A DNA stretch of 64,000 nt from Thermasporomyces composti (GTDB lineage: Bacteria; Actinomycetota; Actinomycetes; Propionibacteriales; Actinopolymorphaceae), in NCBI RefSeq assembly GCF_003386795.1, contig NZ_QTUC01000001.1, forward strand, positions 434,001 through 498,000, read 5' to 3'. This document shows, one piece after another, positions 2,158-44,496 of this stretch (the first letter of the stretch is position 1; every line of letters starts with the position of its first letter). The notes beneath the pieces are model-generated. The model was given only the letters and a program-made list of their open reading frames with translations, searched no databases and had not been told where the DNA came from. The translations under genes and the position numbers were made by a program.

Positions 2158-3738
2158 ATGGGCGCACTGGACTGGCTCGTCCTCCTCGGCTACTTCGGCG
2201 TCATGGTCGGCATCGGCCTGTGGGCACGAGCCCGGATCCGCAGTGCGCGGGACTTCTTCGTCGCCGGCGGCCGGATGCCGTGGTGGCTGTCGGGGATCTC
2301 GCACCACATGTCGGGCTACAGCGCGGCCGTGTTCGTCGGGTACGCCGCCGTCGCCTACACCCACGGCTTCACGCTCTACGTGTGGTGGGCGATCCCCATC
2401 ACGATCGCCATGCTGGTCGGCGCGGCCACGTTCGCGCCTCGGTGGCCCCGCCTGCGGCGACGGCTCGGCATCATCTCCCCGCTCGAGTACCTCGCGACCC
2501 GCTACGACGTGCCGACCCAGCAGCTGCTGGCCTGGAGCGGCACCGCGCTCAAGGTCTTCGACGTGGGAGCGAAGTGGGCGGCGACCGCGATTCTCCTCGA
2601 GGTCTTCGCCGGCGTCCCCCTCGCGTGGGGCATCCTCCTCACCGGCGGCGTCACACTCGTCTACTCCACGGTCGGCGGCCTCTGGGCCGACGCCCTGACC
2701 GACTTCGGCCAGTTCGTCATCCAGGCGCTCGCCGGCCTGACGTTGTTCGTCGCGGTCCTCACTCGGCTCGGAGGCATTCCGGCGCTGTGGGAGGTCTGGG
2801 ACCGGCTTCCTCCTGAGCACGCGCGCCCGTTCAACGGGGAGTACACCGTCGTCTTCGTGCTCGCCTACGTCCTCATCTCGACGTTGTCCTACAACGGCGG
2901 CACCTGGAACCTCGCCCAGCGCTTCATCGCGGCGCCGAGTGGAGAGTCTGCGCGCCGCGCCGCGCTCCTGTCGGCCGGTCTCTACCTGCTCTGGCCACTC
3001 GTGCTCTTCTTCCCCATGTGGGCGGCACCGTTGCTGCTGCCTGACCTCGAGGACCCATCGCAGTCCTACGCCCTGCTCACCACCCAGCTGCTACCCGCTG
3101 GGCTCGTCGGCTTGGTGCTCGCCGGCATGTTCGCGCACACCATGGCGATGACGTCCTCCGACGCCAACGCGATCTCCGCCGTCGTGATCCGCGACATCCT
3201 GCCGCGGCTCTGGAAAGGAGCACGGTCGATGTCGGGTCGGGTGGAGCTGGCGGCCGGACGGTTCAGCGTCTTCACGTTCATCGCGCTGTCGATGGTGATC
3301 GCACTCGCGGCCGACTCCTTCGGCGGCGTCCTCGGGCTGATCGTGCTGTGGTTCGGCGCGCTCGTCGGCCCGATCGCGATCCCCATGCTCCTCGGCATGC
3401 TGCCGGCCTTCCGGCGCTGCGGTCCCTCCGCGGCCGTCGTCTCCTGGGCCGGCGGTCTGGTCGTCTTCACCTTGGTCAAGTACGTCTTCGACGACAGCAT
3501 CGCCGCGCTCGGCGGTGACCTCCAGACGACGTTCACCGTCGCCGGCCCCGTCCTGTGCGCGCTCCTGCTGTTCGTCGCGGTCGGCTACCTGCGACCGTCA
3601 CGCGACTCGCGCGCGCTTGCTCTCGTCGCGGCGCTGACACGCGACGAGGACGAGCCGGAGCCGACCGGCCGGGCGAGCTCGAGCGCGGCCGACGTCGGGT
3701 CGTCTCCACCACACGGTAGAGGAGGACTCCGTGCCTGA
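2158..3738 (+). CDS. Sodium:solute symporter (SSS) family transporter
   Basis: The product has 526 residues and about thirteen transmembrane segments, with the SSS pattern in the N-terminal half (RDFFVAGGRMPWWLSG, ISHHMSGYSAAVFVG). SSS proteins use the sodium gradient to import sugars, sialic acids, amino acids or vitamins. ATG 2158 is chosen because GGGAGA lies about 4 bp before it; an ATG 36 bp upstream would add twelve unlikely residues. The hydrophilic tail ends after a final membrane span. The last 8 bp overlap the epimerase gene, so the two are translationally coupled. The downstream amino-sugar enzymes suggest an N-acetylated hexosamine or a related sugar as cargo, which is an inference. 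Confidence 0.88.
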   Translation: MGALDWLVLLGYFGVMVGIGLWARARIRSARDFFVAGGRMPWWLSGISHHMSGYSAAVFVGYAAVAYTHGFTLYVWWAIPITIAMLVGAATFAPRWPRLRRRLGIISPLEYLATRYDVPTQQLLAWSGTALKVFDVGAKWAATAILLEVFAGVPLAWGILLTGGVTLVYSTVGGLWADALTDFGQFVIQALAGLTLFVAVLTRLGGIPALWEVWDRLPPEHARPFNGEYTVVFVLAYVLISTLSYNGGTWNLAQRFIAAPSGESARRAALLSAGLYLLWPLVLFFPMWAAPLLLPDLEDPSQSYALLTTQLLPAGLVGLVLAGMFAHTMAMTSSDANAISAVVIRDILPRLWKGARSMSGRVELAAGRFSVFTFIALSMVIALAADSFGGVLGLIVLWFGALVGPIAIPMLLGMLPAFRRCGPSAAVVSWAGGLVVFTLVKYVFDDSIAALGGDLQTTFTVAGPVLCALLLFVAVGYLRPSRDSRALALVAALTRDEDEPEPTGRASSSAADVGSSPPHGRGGLRA

Positions 3739-5011
3739 CCTCGATCTGCGCACCCATCTCGTCGACGACGTGGTGGGCTGGTGGCTGCGTCACGGGCCGG
3801 ACGACCTCCAGGGCGGTGTCTTCACCTGCTGGGACAACGCTGGTGAGCGTCTACTGTCGACGGACAAGTACACCTGGTCGCAGGGACGTTGGATCTGGCT
3901 GACCGCCCGGCTGGCCGACAGCGTCGCGCGAGGAGCGCTCGCCTCGGCGCAGGATCGCCTTGACAGTGAACGTCTCCTCGCGCTGGCGCGATCCACCGCG
4001 GACTTCGTACGGCGACACGCACTCCTACCGGACGGCACCACGGCCTACGTCACCGATCGCACCGGTCGGCCCAAGGAGCCGGCGCCGGGTGCCGGCCTGC
4101 ACACGAGCGTGTTCGCCGATTGCTTCGTGGCCTTGGGGCTCGCGGCACTCGCTCGTCTGGACGGCGATCGAGCCGCCGCCCGGCTCGCGGAGGACCTGCT
4201 GCACAGCGCGGACGCGCGGGTTCGCGCCGGGCGCGCGCGCACGGACCCATACCCGGTGCATCCGGCCTTCGCGGCGTTCTCCCTGCCGATGATCCTGCTC
4301 GGCACCGCCACCGAGGTTCACCAGGCGACCGGCTCGCCTGGCAGCGCCGAGGTGGCGACCCAGGCGGCCCGCACGATCGTGACCTGGTTCCGCGACGGCG
4401 CCGACGTGCGCGAGCTGCGTCCGAACCCACGCGGGTTCGACGACACCTTGCTCGCGCGCCACCGGACGCCCGGCCACGTCCTGGAGTGCGCGTGGTTCCT
4501 CGTCCACGCCGCCGACACGGTGCCAGGAGTCGCCGGCGTGCTCGGTGACTGGCCGACCTGGCTTCCGACCGTGGCCGCGCACGCGCTCGCCCTGGGCTGG
4601 GACGAGCAAGACGGCGGCCTGTTCCGCTACACCGACGTCGACGGCGGCGAGCCACGGGGACGCCTCCTCGACGACCCCTACGAGCGGCTGGTGCGCGACA
4701 CCTGGGACACCAAGCTGTGGTGGCCCCACGCGGAGGCTCTCTACGCCACCGCCTTGCTCGCTCGCCGGTGTCGCGCGGCCGACCGATCAGCGCCCGCCGC
4801 CGAGCTCACCGCGTGGCACGATCGCCTCCGGGCGTACACGTTCGCCACCTTCCCCGCCGGGCCTGGCCGGGAGTGGATCCAGATCCGCCGGCGCGACGGC
4901 GCGCCCCTCGACCAGACCGTGGCGCTTCCGGTCAAGGATCCGTTCCACGTCGCGCGCGCCCTCCTGCTTATGGTGGAGATCGACGAACCTGGCGAAAGGA
5001 CGAATCCGTGA
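3731..5011 (+). CDS. AGE-family (N-acylglucosamine 2-epimerase) sugar epimerase/isomerase
   Basis: The 426-residue protein has the (alpha/alpha)6-barrel pattern of the AGE superfamily: GGVFTCWD near the start, then KYTWSQGRWIW, later HVLECAWFLVHA and DTKLWWPHAEAL. Family members interconvert GlcNAc and ManNAc, or isomerise mannose, or epimerise disaccharides, without phosphorylated substrates. The start is GTG 3731, preceded by GAGGAGGA. It overlaps the symporter by 8 bp and the NagB-like gene by 4 bp (GTGA). A likely role is to convert an imported N-acyl sugar before phosphorylation and deacetylation by NagA. A plain mannose or cellobiose isomerase activity cannot be excluded. Confidence 0.85.
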   Translation: MPDLDLRTHLVDDVVGWWLRHGPDDLQGGVFTCWDNAGERLLSTDKYTWSQGRWIWLTARLADSVARGALASAQDRLDSERLLALARSTADFVRRHALLPDGTTAYVTDRTGRPKEPAPGAGLHTSVFADCFVALGLAALARLDGDRAAARLAEDLLHSADARVRAGRARTDPYPVHPAFAAFSLPMILLGTATEVHQATGSPGSAEVATQAARTIVTWFRDGADVRELRPNPRGFDDTLLARHRTPGHVLECAWFLVHAADTVPGVAGVLGDWPTWLPTVAAHALALGWDEQDGGLFRYTDVDGGEPRGRLLDDPYERLVRDTWDTKLWWPHAEALYATALLARRCRAADRSAPAAELTAWHDRLRAYTFATFPAGPGREWIQIRRRDGAPLDQTVALPVKDPFHVARALLLMVEIDEPGERTNP

Positions 5012-6955: not shown

Positions 6956-8112
6956 CCGCGGACGCCACGATCGTCCGCGCCGGCGCCGCCGTCGTCGACA
7001 TCACGCCCCCGGCGGGCCTGGCCATGTCGGGCTACTCCGCCCGCACGTCTCCCGCCACCGCCGCGCACGACCCGCTCACCGCACGGGCCCTCGTGGTGAA
7101 CGACACCGCGATCGTGGCGGTCGACGTCTGCGGCCTCCACGAGGACACCTGTGAGCGCGTGCGTCGCAACGTCGTCACGGCGGCCCCCCACCTGACCTCC
7201 GTGGTCGTCACGGCGACGCACACCCACGGCGGTCCGGCCGTCGTGCCCGGTCGGCTCGGCGGACCTGTGGACCCGACGTACCTGGCCCGATTGGAGAGCG
7301 CGTGCGTCGAGGCCGTTCTCGCCGCCGACCGGTCCGCGCGTCGTGTCACGGTCTGGTTCGGCGTCGGAACCGACCCTGGCGTCGCTCGCAATCGGCGCCG
7401 CCCCGATGGCCCCACGGACCCGACGCTGCCCGTCCTCCGGTTCGTCGACGAGGCCGGCCAGGTCGTGGCGGTCGTGACGTCGTACGCCTGTCACCCGGTT
7501 GTCCTCGGTCCACGCACCACGGTCTGGACGGCCGACTATCCCGGGGTCGTGCGGCGGGAGCTGGAGCGGGCCGTCCCTGGCTCGGTCGCGCTCTTTCTCA
7601 CCGGGTGCTGTGGCGACGCGAACACCGGGCACTCGGCTAGCGCCTCGATCGTCGGCACGGGAGGCCCATCCCGGACCTTTCCGACCTGCGAACGGCTGGG
7701 GCGGCGCATCGCGCAAGCCGCCCTTGACGCTGACACACGACCCGTGTCCGGACCGACCGGAGGCCGGCACGCCGGCGTCGAGCTCGCCCTCGGTGACGGC
7801 TCGTGCTGGCGCGGTCGGGTGAGCGTGCTGACCTGGGCCGGAGTCCGCGTCGTCGCGTTCCCCGGCGAGCCGTTCGCGGCGACGTCGCTCGCGGTGCGGG
7901 CCGCCCTTCCTGGTCCTGCGCTGGTCCTCGGCTACGCCGACGGGTGTCCCGGCTACCTGCCGCCACGGGAGGAGTACGCCCATGGCGGATACGAGGTGGA
8001 GGAGGCGCACCTGTACTACGGCATGCCGGCGGCGTTCGCCCCAGGTTGCGCCGAGCAGCTCCTCGACACCGCGCTCCGACTCGCGACGACCGACTCAACG
8101 GTCCTCGCGTAG
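6952..8112 (+). CDS. Neutral/alkaline non-lysosomal ceramidase-like (PF04734-type) protein
   Basis: The product has 386 residues and resembles the N-terminal domain of neutral ceramidases: AAVVDITPPAGLAMSGYSAR at the start, VVVTATHTHGGP (the two His are probable zinc ligands), VTSYACHPVVLG and LFLTGCCGDANT. True ceramidases are secreted and longer, with a C-terminal immunoglobulin-like domain. This version has no signal peptide and no second domain, so it is more likely a cytoplasmic amidase or other hydrolase. It overlaps nagA by 4 bp (ATGA), so it belongs to the amino-sugar operon and may cleave an N-acyl or glycosidic bond of the imported compound. Its end overlaps the convergent nadC by 18 bp. 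Confidence 0.78.
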   Translation: MTADATIVRAGAAVVDITPPAGLAMSGYSARTSPATAAHDPLTARALVVNDTAIVAVDVCGLHEDTCERVRRNVVTAAPHLTSVVVTATHTHGGPAVVPGRLGGPVDPTYLARLESACVEAVLAADRSARRVTVWFGVGTDPGVARNRRRPDGPTDPTLPVLRFVDEAGQVVAVVTSYACHPVVLGPRTTVWTADYPGVVRRELERAVPGSVALFLTGCCGDANTGHSASASIVGTGGPSRTFPTCERLGRRIAQAALDADTRPVSGPTGGRHAGVELALGDGSCWRGRVSVLTWAGVRVVAFPGEPFAATSLAVRAALPGPALVLGYADGCPGYLPPREEYAHGGYEVEEAHLYYGMPAAFAPGCAEQLLDTALRLATTDSTVLA

Positions 8113-40340: not shown

Positions 40341-41195
40341 TCAGAGGTCGATCTCACCCCGGGCCGTGAGGACCGCCGGACCGGTGAGCACGACGTGCTG
40401 GTCAGCGCGGAACGACACGGTGAGACTGCCGCCGGGGACGTCGATCCGGTACGCCTCGCCGGCCGGCAGGTTGACCTGCTGGTCGGCGAGGTGGTCGACC
40501 GCGGCCGCCACCACCGCGACCGAGCAGGCGCCGGTCCCGCAGGAGCGGGTCTCGCCCACGCCACGCTCGTGGACCCGCATCGCCAGGTGTCGTGATCCAC
40601 GCCAGACGGCGAACTCGATGTTCACACCCTTGGGGAACGCCTCGCTCGGGGACCACGTCGGCTGCTCCACCAAAGGCCCAGGGTCGGCGAGGTCGTCGAC
40701 GAACGCGACCGCGTGCGGGTTCCCCATGTCAACTGGCACGGCCGGCCAGGAGCGACCGGCGGCGCTCACCATGACCGCGCTCGGCCCAGGAAGGCGAGGG
40801 CGACCCATGTCAACGCTGAGTTGACTATCGTCCTCGAACCGCACGCGCTTCACGCCAGCCCGCGTCCCCACCGGCAGCTCGACGCTCGGGTCGACGAGAC
40901 CGTGGACCCGGAGGTAGTGGGCGAAGACTCGCACGCCGTTGCCGCACATCTCCCCAGTGGAACCGTCGGCGTTGCGGAAGTCCATGAACCACTCGGCCTC
41001 GTCGGCGTACGGGCGACCGTCGTCGAGCGCCGCCGAGCGGACCACCCGCAGCACACCGTCGGCCCCCACACCTCGACGGCGGTGGCACAGCTCGCGCACC
41101 AGACCTTCGTCGAGGCGCATCGTGCCGTCCGGGTCATGCAGCAGCACGAAGTCGTTCTCCGTGCCGTGGCCCTTCACCCACGAGATCGTGCCCAT
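40341..41195 (-). CDS. dapF: Diaminopimelate epimerase
   Basis: The 284-residue enzyme interconverts LL- and meso-diaminopimelate for lysine and peptidoglycan synthesis. Its two catalytic cysteines are in EMCGNGVR and SCGTGACS, and NDFVLL plus GNPHAVAFV are typical. GAAGGTGAG about 4 bp upstream supports ATG 41195 rather than the GTG 6 bp earlier. It lies between the efflux gene and the broken gamma-glutamyltransferase; in other actinobacteria it directly follows miaA. Confidence 0.95.
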   Translation of the reverse strand: MGTISWVKGHGTENDFVLLHDPDGTMRLDEGLVRELCHRRRGVGADGVLRVVRSAALDDGRPYADEAEWFMDFRNADGSTGEMCGNGVRVFAHYLRVHGLVDPSVELPVGTRAGVKRVRFEDDSQLSVDMGRPRLPGPSAVMVSAAGRSWPAVPVDMGNPHAVAFVDDLADPGPLVEQPTWSPSEAFPKGVNIEFAVWRGSRHLAMRVHERGVGETRSCGTGACSVAVVAAAVDHLADQQVNLPAGEAYRIDVPGGSLTVSFRADQHVVLTGPAVLTARGEIDL

Positions 41196-41443
41196 GCTCA
41201 CCTTCGTCGTGATCTCGCCCGCGCGCCGAGGAGCGTCGCCTTCGCCCGGATTCCGCCCCGTTCACCTGTCGCTTCGGATGTCGGGATCGGGCTGCCGGCG
41301 GACTGGTGGCTCGCTCCCGCGCCGTCCGGGCTCCAGCCTAGAGTCCGATCGGCGCTTGGGTCTGATCGACCCTGGAGTCCGACGAGCCGTCCGGCCGGGC
41401 CTGCTCGGACCCCCGCGCGGACTACTCGGCGTGGCCACCTGTC

Positions 41444-43330
41444 TCAGCGACCGACGGGGTGGACGACCATGGCGGAGCCACCGCCACGCCGAGTGGGTTC
41501 GGCGACCGCGACGACGTAGCCGCGACGTCCGAACTCCAACGCCGTGGCGGCCCCGATCTCCTCGATCTCGGAGAACTGGTGCCCCATCGCGGCGAGGGCT
41601 CGCCCCTGCGCCGAGGCGATGAACGCGGGCTCGGCCTGCGTGACGGCGTTCCGAGGCGACACCCTGGGCGCGGCGACCGCCTCGGGGAGTCCCATCCCGA
41701 GCTCCAGCCGGTTGAGCAGCGTCTAGAGCACCGTCGTGATGATCGTCGCTCCGCCCGGACTGCCCAGGGCGAGGAAGGGCCGACCATCGGCGAGCACGAT
41801 CGTCGGCGCCATCGACGAGCGTGGGCGCTTGCGAGGGCCGGGCAGGTTCGGGTCGGGCGCGTCACCCTGTGTCGGCGCGAAGCTGAAGTCGGTCAGCTCG
41901 TTGTTGAGGAGGAAGCCACGGTCGGGCACGACCATCCCGTTGCCACCGGTCGCCTCGATGGTGAGGGTGTAGGACACCACGTTGCCCCACCGGTCGGAGA
42001 CGGTCAGATGGGTGGTCGAGGGACCCTCGTGCTGGCCGCCACGCGCCGGCGGCGCCTGGGCGCCGCAGGGGTTGTACTCACCGTCGGGGACGCCGGGCGG
42101 CACCGGCTTGGGCAGCACCTCGTCGAGCCGAATGTGGCAGGCGCGTTCTTCCGCGAAGCCCTGCGACAGCAGCTCGTCCAGCGGGACGTCCACCTGGTCG
42201 GGGTCGCCGACGTATCGGTCACGATCGGCGAACGCCAACGCGCTCGCCTCCAGGTAAGCGTGCAGCGCGAGGCGCTCCCGGCTGGCACGGGAACCGGTCG
42301 TCCGCGGCAAGACGGTCTCGAGGATGTTGAGCGCCTCGCCGACCGTCGAGCCACCCGACGACGGCGGTCCCATGCTGTAGACGTCGAGTCCCTCGTAACG
42401 CACGTGAGTAGGGCGACGGAACGGCGCGTCGTAGCCCGCCAAGTCCTCGACCGTCATCGCGCCCGGCCGCACCGCCCGGTTGGCGTCCGGTGCCACCGGC
42501 GGCTTGCGTACCGTGTTGACGATCGCGGCGGCCAACGTCCCGTGGTAGAACTCCTCGACGCCCTCCCGAGCGAGGAGTCGGTAGGTGGCGGCGAGGTCGC
42601 GATTGCGGAAGACCGAGCCCACCGCTGGCGGGCGACCGTGTGGGAGGTAGAGCTCGCGCGTCGAGGTGAAGTCGTCGAAGATGTCGGCGTTCTGGGCGAT
42701 CTGCGACCGGAACGTCTCGTCCACCACGAACCCCCGCCGCGCGACGCGGATCGCCGGGCCCAGTGCGCGCCGCAGCGACCAGGTGCCCCACGTGTCGAGG
42801 GCCCGTTGCCACGTCGCCGGTGTCCCCGGGACGCCAACCGAGAGCCCGCTGACCCGGGCCTCCTCGAACGGCAGCGGCTCCCCTGTGGCGGGATCGAGGA
42901 ACAGCCGTTCCGTGGCCGCGGCCGGCGCGGTCTCGCGGCCGTCGATGGTGTGGACCCTGCGAGTGCGCGCGTCGTAGTAGACGAAGAAGCCTCCACCACC
43001 GATGCCTGCGGAGAAGGGCTCGGTGACGCCGAGCGTCGCGGCGGCCGCGACCGCCGCGTCGACCGCGTTGCCTCCGCGGCGGAGGACCTCGATCCCCGCC
43101 CTCGTCGCGTGCGGGTCCACGGTCGAGACCGCACCACCGTACCCGCGCGCGACCGCCTGCTTCGGTACGTCCCGGCGTCCGGCGAGCTTCGCCGACCGCG
43201 ACGTCTCGTCAGCCCCCGCGGCGGAGGCGGGAGCCGCGCGAGCGTGCTCGGGCGCCGGTGCCGCGAGGACGGCGGAGCCGCCTGCTACCGACGTCGCCAG
43301 GGCCACGGCCGCCGCGATGGTCCGTCGCAT
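41444..43330 (-). pseudogene. Gamma-glutamyltransferase interrupted by an in-frame TAG
   Basis: The gene starts ATG 43330 with a signal peptide (MRRTIAAAVALATSVAGG, then AAPA) and has GGT features: GGNAVDAAVAA, GGGGFFVYYD, the autoprocessing Thr in STTHLTVSD, and ALGSPGGATIITTVL. Translation stops at TAG 41723-41725 after 535 residues. The same frame continues for 92 codons to TGA 41444, encoding TLLNRLELGMGLPEAVAAPR and a normal GGT C-terminus. In intact homologues the motif is VLQTLLN, so a CAG-to-TAG change explains the break. The truncated protein would lack part of the small-subunit core. No frameshift is visible. It may be a recent pseudogene, a read-through gene or a sequencing error. 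Confidence 0.88.
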
Positions 43331-43470: not shown

Positions 43471-44496
43471 CTAGCCGGAAGCATCCGTGACGATTCGGAC
43501 CGCTCGGTCGACCAGGTCCGGCGCGTCGTAGGGCAGCCAGTGGATCCGGGGGTCGCGGCGGAACCACGAGTCCTGGCGGCGCACGAACCTGCGCGTGATC
43601 CGCACCGTCTCCTCCTTGGCCTCCTCTTCCGTGAGGCGACCGTCGAGGTAGGCCAGCACCTGTGCGTAGCCGTGGGCGCGGCTGGCCGTCGGGCTCTCGC
43701 GCAAGCCGGCCTCCGCCAGGCGCCGGACCTCCTCGACCCATCCGGCGGCCCACATGCGGTCGACGCGGGCTCGGATCCGCTCGTCCAAGACGTCCCGAGG
43801 CACGTCAAGGCCGACTTGACGCACGTCCGGAAACGCGTACGTGTGATCGGGCAGGCTCGCGGTGAACGGACGGCCGGTGATCTCGACGACCTCGAGCGCG
43901 CGCACGATACGTCGGCCGTTGGAGGGCAGGATTCGCGCTGCCGCCTCCGGATCCACCGCCGCCAGCCGGCGGTGCATCGCCTGCGGTCCCACCCGCTGAA
44001 GCTCCACCTCCAGGCTGCGCCGCACCGCCGGGTCCGTGCCTGGGAACTCGAAACGGTCCAAGACCGCTCGGATGTACAAGGCCGACCCGCCGACCACGAT
44101 GGGCAGGACACCGCGGGCGTGGCAGTCGTGGATCGCGGCGCGCGCCCAGCCCTGGAACTCCGCCACCGTGGCGGTGTCGCGGATGTCGAGGACGTCCATG
44201 ACGTGGTGTGGAACGCCGCGACGTTGCTCGAGCGTGAGCTTGGCCGTGCCGATGTCCATGCCGCGGTACAGCTGCATCGAGTCCGCGTTGATCACCTCGC
44301 CGCCCAGTCGAAGCGCCAGCTCGACCGCGAGGTCCGATTTGCCCGCGGCCGTCGGCCCGACCACCGCCACCACGCGCCCCGTCGCCGCGTGCTCCGCGCT
44401 GGCGTCCCCAGCGATCAGGTGTCCAGCAGTCGCGTGCCCACCGTGCACTGCCTCGGCCTCCCCAGCCACGCGCGCCCTGTCAACGCCAAGCTCCAT
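43471..44496 (-). CDS. miaA: tRNA dimethylallyltransferase
   Basis: The 341-residue protein transfers a dimethylallyl group to A37 of tRNAs reading UNN codons; MiaB, also in this window, then methylthiolates it. It has the P-loop GPTAAGKS (47-54), INADSMQLYRGMDIGTAK, PHHVMDVLD and VVGGSALYIRAVL. About 40 residues precede the P-loop, more than usual, so the true start could be an internal GTG near 44373. The annotated ATG overlaps the extradiol-like gene by 17 bp. Confidence 0.95.
   Translation of the reverse strand: MELGVDRARVAGEAEAVHGGHATAGHLIAGDASAEHAATGRVVAVVGPTAAGKSDLAVELALRLGGEVINADSMQLYRGMDIGTAKLTLEQRRGVPHHVMDVLDIRDTATVAEFQGWARAAIHDCHARGVLPIVVGGSALYIRAVLDRFEFPGTDPAVRRSLEVELQRVGPQAMHRRLAAVDPEAAARILPSNGRRIVRALEVVEITGRPFTASLPDHTYAFPDVRQVGLDVPRDVLDERIRARVDRMWAAGWVEEVRRLAEAGLRESPTASRAHGYAQVLAYLDGRLTEEEAKEETVRITRRFVRRQDSWFRRDPRIHWLPYDAPDLVDRAVRIVTDASG

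Follow-up and report, generated by a model that had tools for sequence, protein, structure and literature searches.

A gamma-glutamyltransferase gene of Thermasporomyces composti interrupted by a single in-frame TAG: a probable young nonsense pseudogene

The resident gamma-glutamyltransferase (GGT) gene of Thermasporomyces composti, ggt, was probably inactivated recently by one nonsense mutation, which would make it a young pseudogene; we put the probability of this reading at about 0.73. The gene lies in a 64,000-nucleotide stretch of the genome, referred to here as the window. A TAG stands within its frame, the frame beyond this stop is intact, the orthologues at the same place in related genomes are intact, and the genome carries the signs of TAG as a normal stop. 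We infer that the TAG is genuine and that the protein, cut short in this way, has no activity.

The ggt frame and the predicted protein

The features of the ggt region are as follows.

41444..43330, minus strand: ggt frame, interrupted once, of 628 codons plus stop from ATG to natural TGA; above the PF01019 and TIGR00066 cut-offs when read through
41723..41725, minus strand: in-frame TAG, codon 536, as read from the bases; the aligned codon in relatives is CAG, GCC or GGC
41726..43330, minus strand: upstream part of 535 codons, with the N-terminus, the large subunit, Thr439 and residues 1-97 of the small subunit; PF01019 positions 2-428 of 512
41447..41722, minus strand: undamaged downstream part of 92 codons, covering the small subunit's C-terminal half; PF01019 positions 430-512
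42014..42016, minus strand: codon ACC of the predicted self-processing and catalytic Thr439, where most small chains in the PDB start
41444..41695, minus strand: ORF of 83 amino acids, a possible restart, with its ATG 27 bases past the TAG and GGAG 6 bases before the ATG
40341..41201, minus strand: putative dapF (diaminopimelate epimerase), downstream neighbour; same gene order in all seven other genomes of the family
43471..44496, minus strand: putative miaA (tRNA dimethylallyltransferase), upstream neighbour; same gene order in all seven other genomes of the family

Translation of 43330-41447 on the minus strand contains a single TAG, at codon 536, and the natural end of ggt is the TGA at 41446-41444. 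The read-through product matched PF01019 over profile positions 2-512 of 512 (E = 9e-148, 493.7 bits, curated cut-off 27) and the equivalog TIGR00066 over positions 3-517 of 518 (406.1 bits, cut-off 357.85). The truncated reading, which ends at residue 535, was also above both cut-offs, with 369.0 bits for TIGR00066 and a PF01019 match ending at position 428 of 512. The 92-codon tail alone matched PF01019 at positions 430-512 (E = 3.6e-05) with 23.2 bits, slightly below the 27-bit curated cut-off, and had no NCBIfam match. Since the upstream piece covers PF01019 positions 2-428 and the tail 430-512, the two pieces are the halves of one gene broken between adjacent positions. The in-frame TAG is evidently not a chance arrangement.

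These coordinates and the profile match of the tail agree with a preliminary description of the sequence, in which the frame was said to stop at 41723 and to resume in the same frame for 92 codons of GGT C-terminus. The bases around the break, gtg ctc TAG acg ctg ctc aac (TAG at 41725-41723), bear out its reading of the junction as VL-stop-TLLN. Its view that the usual motif is VLQTLLN held for the glutamine, which is found in 85 of 87 orthologues, but not for the whole motif, as the five family sequences read at this place continue QTLV.

The small chains of most solved GGTs among the PDB matches start at query residue 439, the threonine in STTHLTV. With the stop at codon 536, the predicted small subunit of 190 residues loses 93 of them, approximately the last 15% of the protein. 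As written, the gene does not encode a complete small subunit with its C-terminal arginines: R556 and R614/615, all invariant in the 87 orthologues, lie behind the stop. By count, R556 aligns in chain 2e0w with the residue that we take to be R513 of E. coli GGT, and R614/R615 presumably lie near E. coli R571, with both the organism and the numbering offset being our assumption. A review of GGTs (PMC8062742) reports that self-processing of the E. coli enzyme was blocked by R513A and by R571G, that C-terminal deletion of B. licheniformis GGT beyond V576, the ninth residue from the end, was detrimental to processing and activity, and that H. pylori GGT was impaired when its C-terminal salt bridges were broken. 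The same review describes full processing of R571A in another GGT, so this arginine does not appear equally critical across studies. The loss of 93 residues, far more than the detrimental C-terminal deletions took away, should nevertheless be inactivating.

We hypothesize that the family's resident ggt orthologue was hit by one nonsense mutation, for which an ancestral CAG changed to TAG fits best. Translation would then end after residue 535, giving a precursor without its last 93 residues. With half of the small subunit missing, including the conserved arginines 556 and 614/615, the product would fail to fold and self-process, and would be inactive.

The genome contains two further PF01019 genes without internal stops, which are ~34-36% identical to ggt. 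The one of these two paralogues that was scored (L003) fell under the TIGR00066 cut-off and, given this score and the low identity, the two are at most candidate replacements for ggt. A TAG listed for the same paralogue was considered as a sign of a second interrupted GGT and rejected, since it precedes that gene's own ATG.

Orthologues and the state of the gene

The set of 87 orthologues comprised the best 80 of 175 named loci and those of seven other genomes of the family. The codon aligned to 536 was a sense codon in all 87 (CAG in 85, GCC in 1 and GGC in 1), and no stop stood at this column in any of them. With CAG in 85 of 87 orthologues, a CAG to TAG transition is the simplest history of the break, as the preliminary description had proposed. 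Each of the seven other family genomes has a ggt orthologue of near full length, 71-74% identical and without a flagged stop. The gene order miaA-ggt-dapF, found in the window, is kept in all seven, which identifies ggt as the resident gene; the names miaA and dapF are those that we take its neighbours to bear. The genus was compared through one genome, the window's own, and segregation or fixation of the mutation is therefore not visible.

A search across 196 genomes of the order gave 107 GGT matches in all, in 106 genomes, of which three were flagged for stops: the window's own ggt and those in genomes G030 and G185. The stop in G185 was rejected as a mid-gene break, being at the extreme C-terminal end, and no stop was found in G030 within query residues 57-625. 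A TGA flagged in a distant homologue (L091, genome G001) falls outside the stretch aligned to query residues 66-621. Three of the best 80 of 175 named loci (L014, L037 and L054) contained stops. Those in L014 and L037 were rejected as interruptions, as they stand at query position 626, the end of the gene.

The third locus, L054, comes from the metagenome-assembled genome Actinomycetes bacterium RYN_229 (match 3001-4701). Its one TGA stands in the middle of the gene, at aligned position 470, and homology continues to 625; one of the 80 named ggt orthologues is apparently also broken, at a different place.

Both parts of the window's ggt are well preserved. At columns conserved in at least 97% of relatives, none of 145 in the body and none of 19 in the tail (out of 86 tail columns) deviated, compared with 0-4 deviations in the body and 0-1 in the tail among the seven family members. 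The GC content at third codon positions was 0.884 before the stop and 0.891 after it. The earlier statement that the downstream codons look undamaged is consistent with both measures. If the gene had evolved neutrally since the stop arose, at most ~1.8% of residues would have changed at conserved sites, as a rough estimate by the rule of three from 0 of 164 columns. A lesion that is young, an error, or a gene still used would each leave all 164 conserved columns without deviation, and sequence alone does not separate these three.

The identity of the tail was 4-9 points lower than that of the body in comparison with six of the seven family members and 2 points higher with the seventh (L090), with a mean ~5 points lower. 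When intact relatives were paired with one another, the close cluster L085-L088 set aside, tail identity was again the lower in 14 of 15 pairs, by ~3 points on average over all 15. This may lean slightly towards a relaxed tail, but the difference amounts to about 2 residues in 87 and gives no basis for inference.

TAG usage and gene decay in the genome

Several features of the genome indicate that TAG looks like an ordinary stop in this organism. Release factor RF1 is present (497 bits, cut-off 423) with its PVT and GGQ motifs, of well-known meaning, kept. Of the 270 coding-like frames in a 464-kb sample of the genome, 60 terminate in TAG, and the TAG of ggt is very likely one of those counted. 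None of the 45 tRNA genes (all Rfam tRNA matches, read with ARAGORN) has the anticodon CUA; tRNA-Gln(CUG) is present. Reassignment or wide suppression of TAG in this genome is so improbable as to be negligible: codon 536 itself is all that speaks in favour, RF1 is intact, the tRNAs and stop usage are as described, and the scan of the 464-kb sample found no other TAG inside a gene. Recoding of TAG was rejected on RF1, tRNAs and stop usage.

ARAGORN also reported a tRNA-Ala (cgc) in L153 (G000:C1:414001-434000, 7987-8074, minus strand) that is absent from the 45 Rfam matches and is perhaps false or degenerate.

The genome is a single contig of 4.37 Mb and is 97.6% complete. The sample, which amounts to 10.6% of the genome, consisted of the 64-kb window and 20 further stretches, each of 20 kb; these stretches were non-random, with 13 around tRNA genes, 2 flanking the window, 2 around release-factor hits and 3 arbitrary. 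The stop scan of this sample, which sought in-frame stops bordered on each side by 60 coding-like codons, returned ten candidates, and by eye only the ggt stop of the window was inside a gene. The nine others, among them a non-gene frame at 17992 of L150, were rejected by eye as places where one frame ends and another follows.

A frameshift hidden Markov model (HMM) run on the same 464 kb gave 38 events, one of which was an in-frame stop (in L149, at a junction also found by the stop scan). In most of them the stop of the old frame and the start of the new one lie within tens of bases of each other, as in gene overlaps. Events at 17374 of L149, 4047 of L151 and 7722 of L157 were unlike simple overlaps. 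Five of the 38 were inspected by eye. Two of these look like real, frameshift-like breaks, and one of the two is in a gene that has a second lesion as well. The remaining 33 were assessed by the distances between stop and start alone, so the indel error rate is not firmly bounded. The model did not call the ggt stop, as it permits a cheap gene end followed by a restart at a nearby start codon.

The gene with two lesions encodes a HAD-like hydrolase in L144 (G000:C1:1258000-1277999, 9001 to about 9650, plus strand), with a TGA 25 codons from its start, missed by the stop scan owing to the 60-codon requirement, and a frameshift. Its last piece is above the HAD_2 cut-off and the two earlier pieces have no Pfam match alone; it looks like a second, more decayed pseudogene. 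An MFS transporter gene in L150 (G000:C1:4308000-4327999, within about 4017-2379, minus strand) changes frame before its C-terminal part, and perhaps some sequence has been lost or deleted there besides the frameshift. Its first piece is above the MFS_1 cut-off, the second has no Pfam match alone, and the gene looks like a third broken one. Gene decay thus seems to be a real process in this genome, which gives a real mutation in ggt a higher prior over an error.

The other seven family genomes compared, at 6.4-10.6 Mb, are all larger than this one, at 4.37 Mb, and gene loss across the lineage may be general.

Competing explanations and known systems

The preliminary description left three options for the stop: a recent change, a sequencing error, or read-through. 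A recent change is the best supported of these. An error still has a share of the probability, and read-through has no conserved signal in the relatives (0 of 87). One lesion and no decay can be held against a young pseudogene, since an error or residual function would explain them equally well; the absence of deviation at all 164 conserved columns is expected for a very young lesion and for a gene in use alike. It is unlikely that the TAG is a sequencing or assembly error and that the true base is as in the relatives, with ggt intact; in consensus assemblies, substitution errors are less usual than indels. The single substitution, the lack of other damage and the unchanged conserved columns would all suit such an error. 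Against it also stand the contiguity and completeness of the assembly, and the fact that one of the two frameshift-like breaks among the five inspected events lies in a two-lesion gene resembling true decay.

Leaky or functional read-through, by which the near-cognate tRNA-Gln(CUG) or another tRNA would yield a little full-length GGT and selection would keep the tail, is improbable. It would agree with the presence of that tRNA and with the retention of every conserved column in body and tail, but a young pseudogene predicts the same absence of damage. RF1 is intact, the CUA tRNA is missing from the genes found, and a stop at this column in 0 of 87 relatives means that no conserved programme is seen. 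Belinky et al. 2021 (PMC7918605) argue that bacterial genes widely carry in-frame stops on which purifying selection acts, with a TAG/CAG example; they also describe most such stops as brief and assume that the vast majority are without functional recoding. Even more doubtful is a leaky-nonsense expression valve restricted to one lineage, in which the TAG would lower GGT without abolishing it, near-cognate decoding, for instance by tRNA-Gln(CUG), would give full-length enzyme at a low level, and selection would keep it. It is very improbable that ggt has become a split gene, in which the 83-residue ORF starting at ATG 41695 would be translated by reinitiation and the pieces would assemble into an enzyme. 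A restart is conceivable on paper, given the ATG 27 bases past the stop and the GGAG 6 bases before it, and GGT is described as naturally two-chain in PMC8062742; the break, however, falls within the small subunit, whereas natural cleavage takes place before Thr439, and the two pieces would lack the ten residues 536-545. Both the ATG and the GGAG code for residues of the ordinary protein as well, and Gly-Met is likewise found here in the solved chain 4y23 and in locus L160. The most likely account of the ggt stop is an ordinary nonsense pseudogene of recent origin; the next most likely is an error.

The stop matters mainly for annotation: unless the site is resequenced, a working copy of the GGT usual in the family should not be attributed to this genome. 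Should read-through be demonstrated, ggt would offer a clean example, confined to one codon, of a conserved enzyme that tolerates a nonsense codon. In the literature searched, no paper was found joining gamma-glutamyltransferase, pseudogene, premature stop codon and actinomycetes.

Read through, the window's ggt is like the known gamma-glutamyltransferases/transpeptidases (PF01019, TIGR00066, MEROPS T03), with Thr439 starting the small chain; as written it differs from them in stopping at residue 535, without the C-terminal half of the small subunit. The in-frame stops under purifying selection described in PMC7918605 resemble this one in having TAG where relatives have CAG and a preserved downstream frame, but that study's filter against artefacts retains stops shared by at least two species, whereas the window's TAG occurs in none of the 87 relatives. 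The likeness to bacterial nonsense (unitary) pseudogenes lies in the single in-frame stop where all 87 aligned relatives have a sense codon; compared with the usual members of that class, the window's ggt has as yet no further decay, and would hence be a young one.
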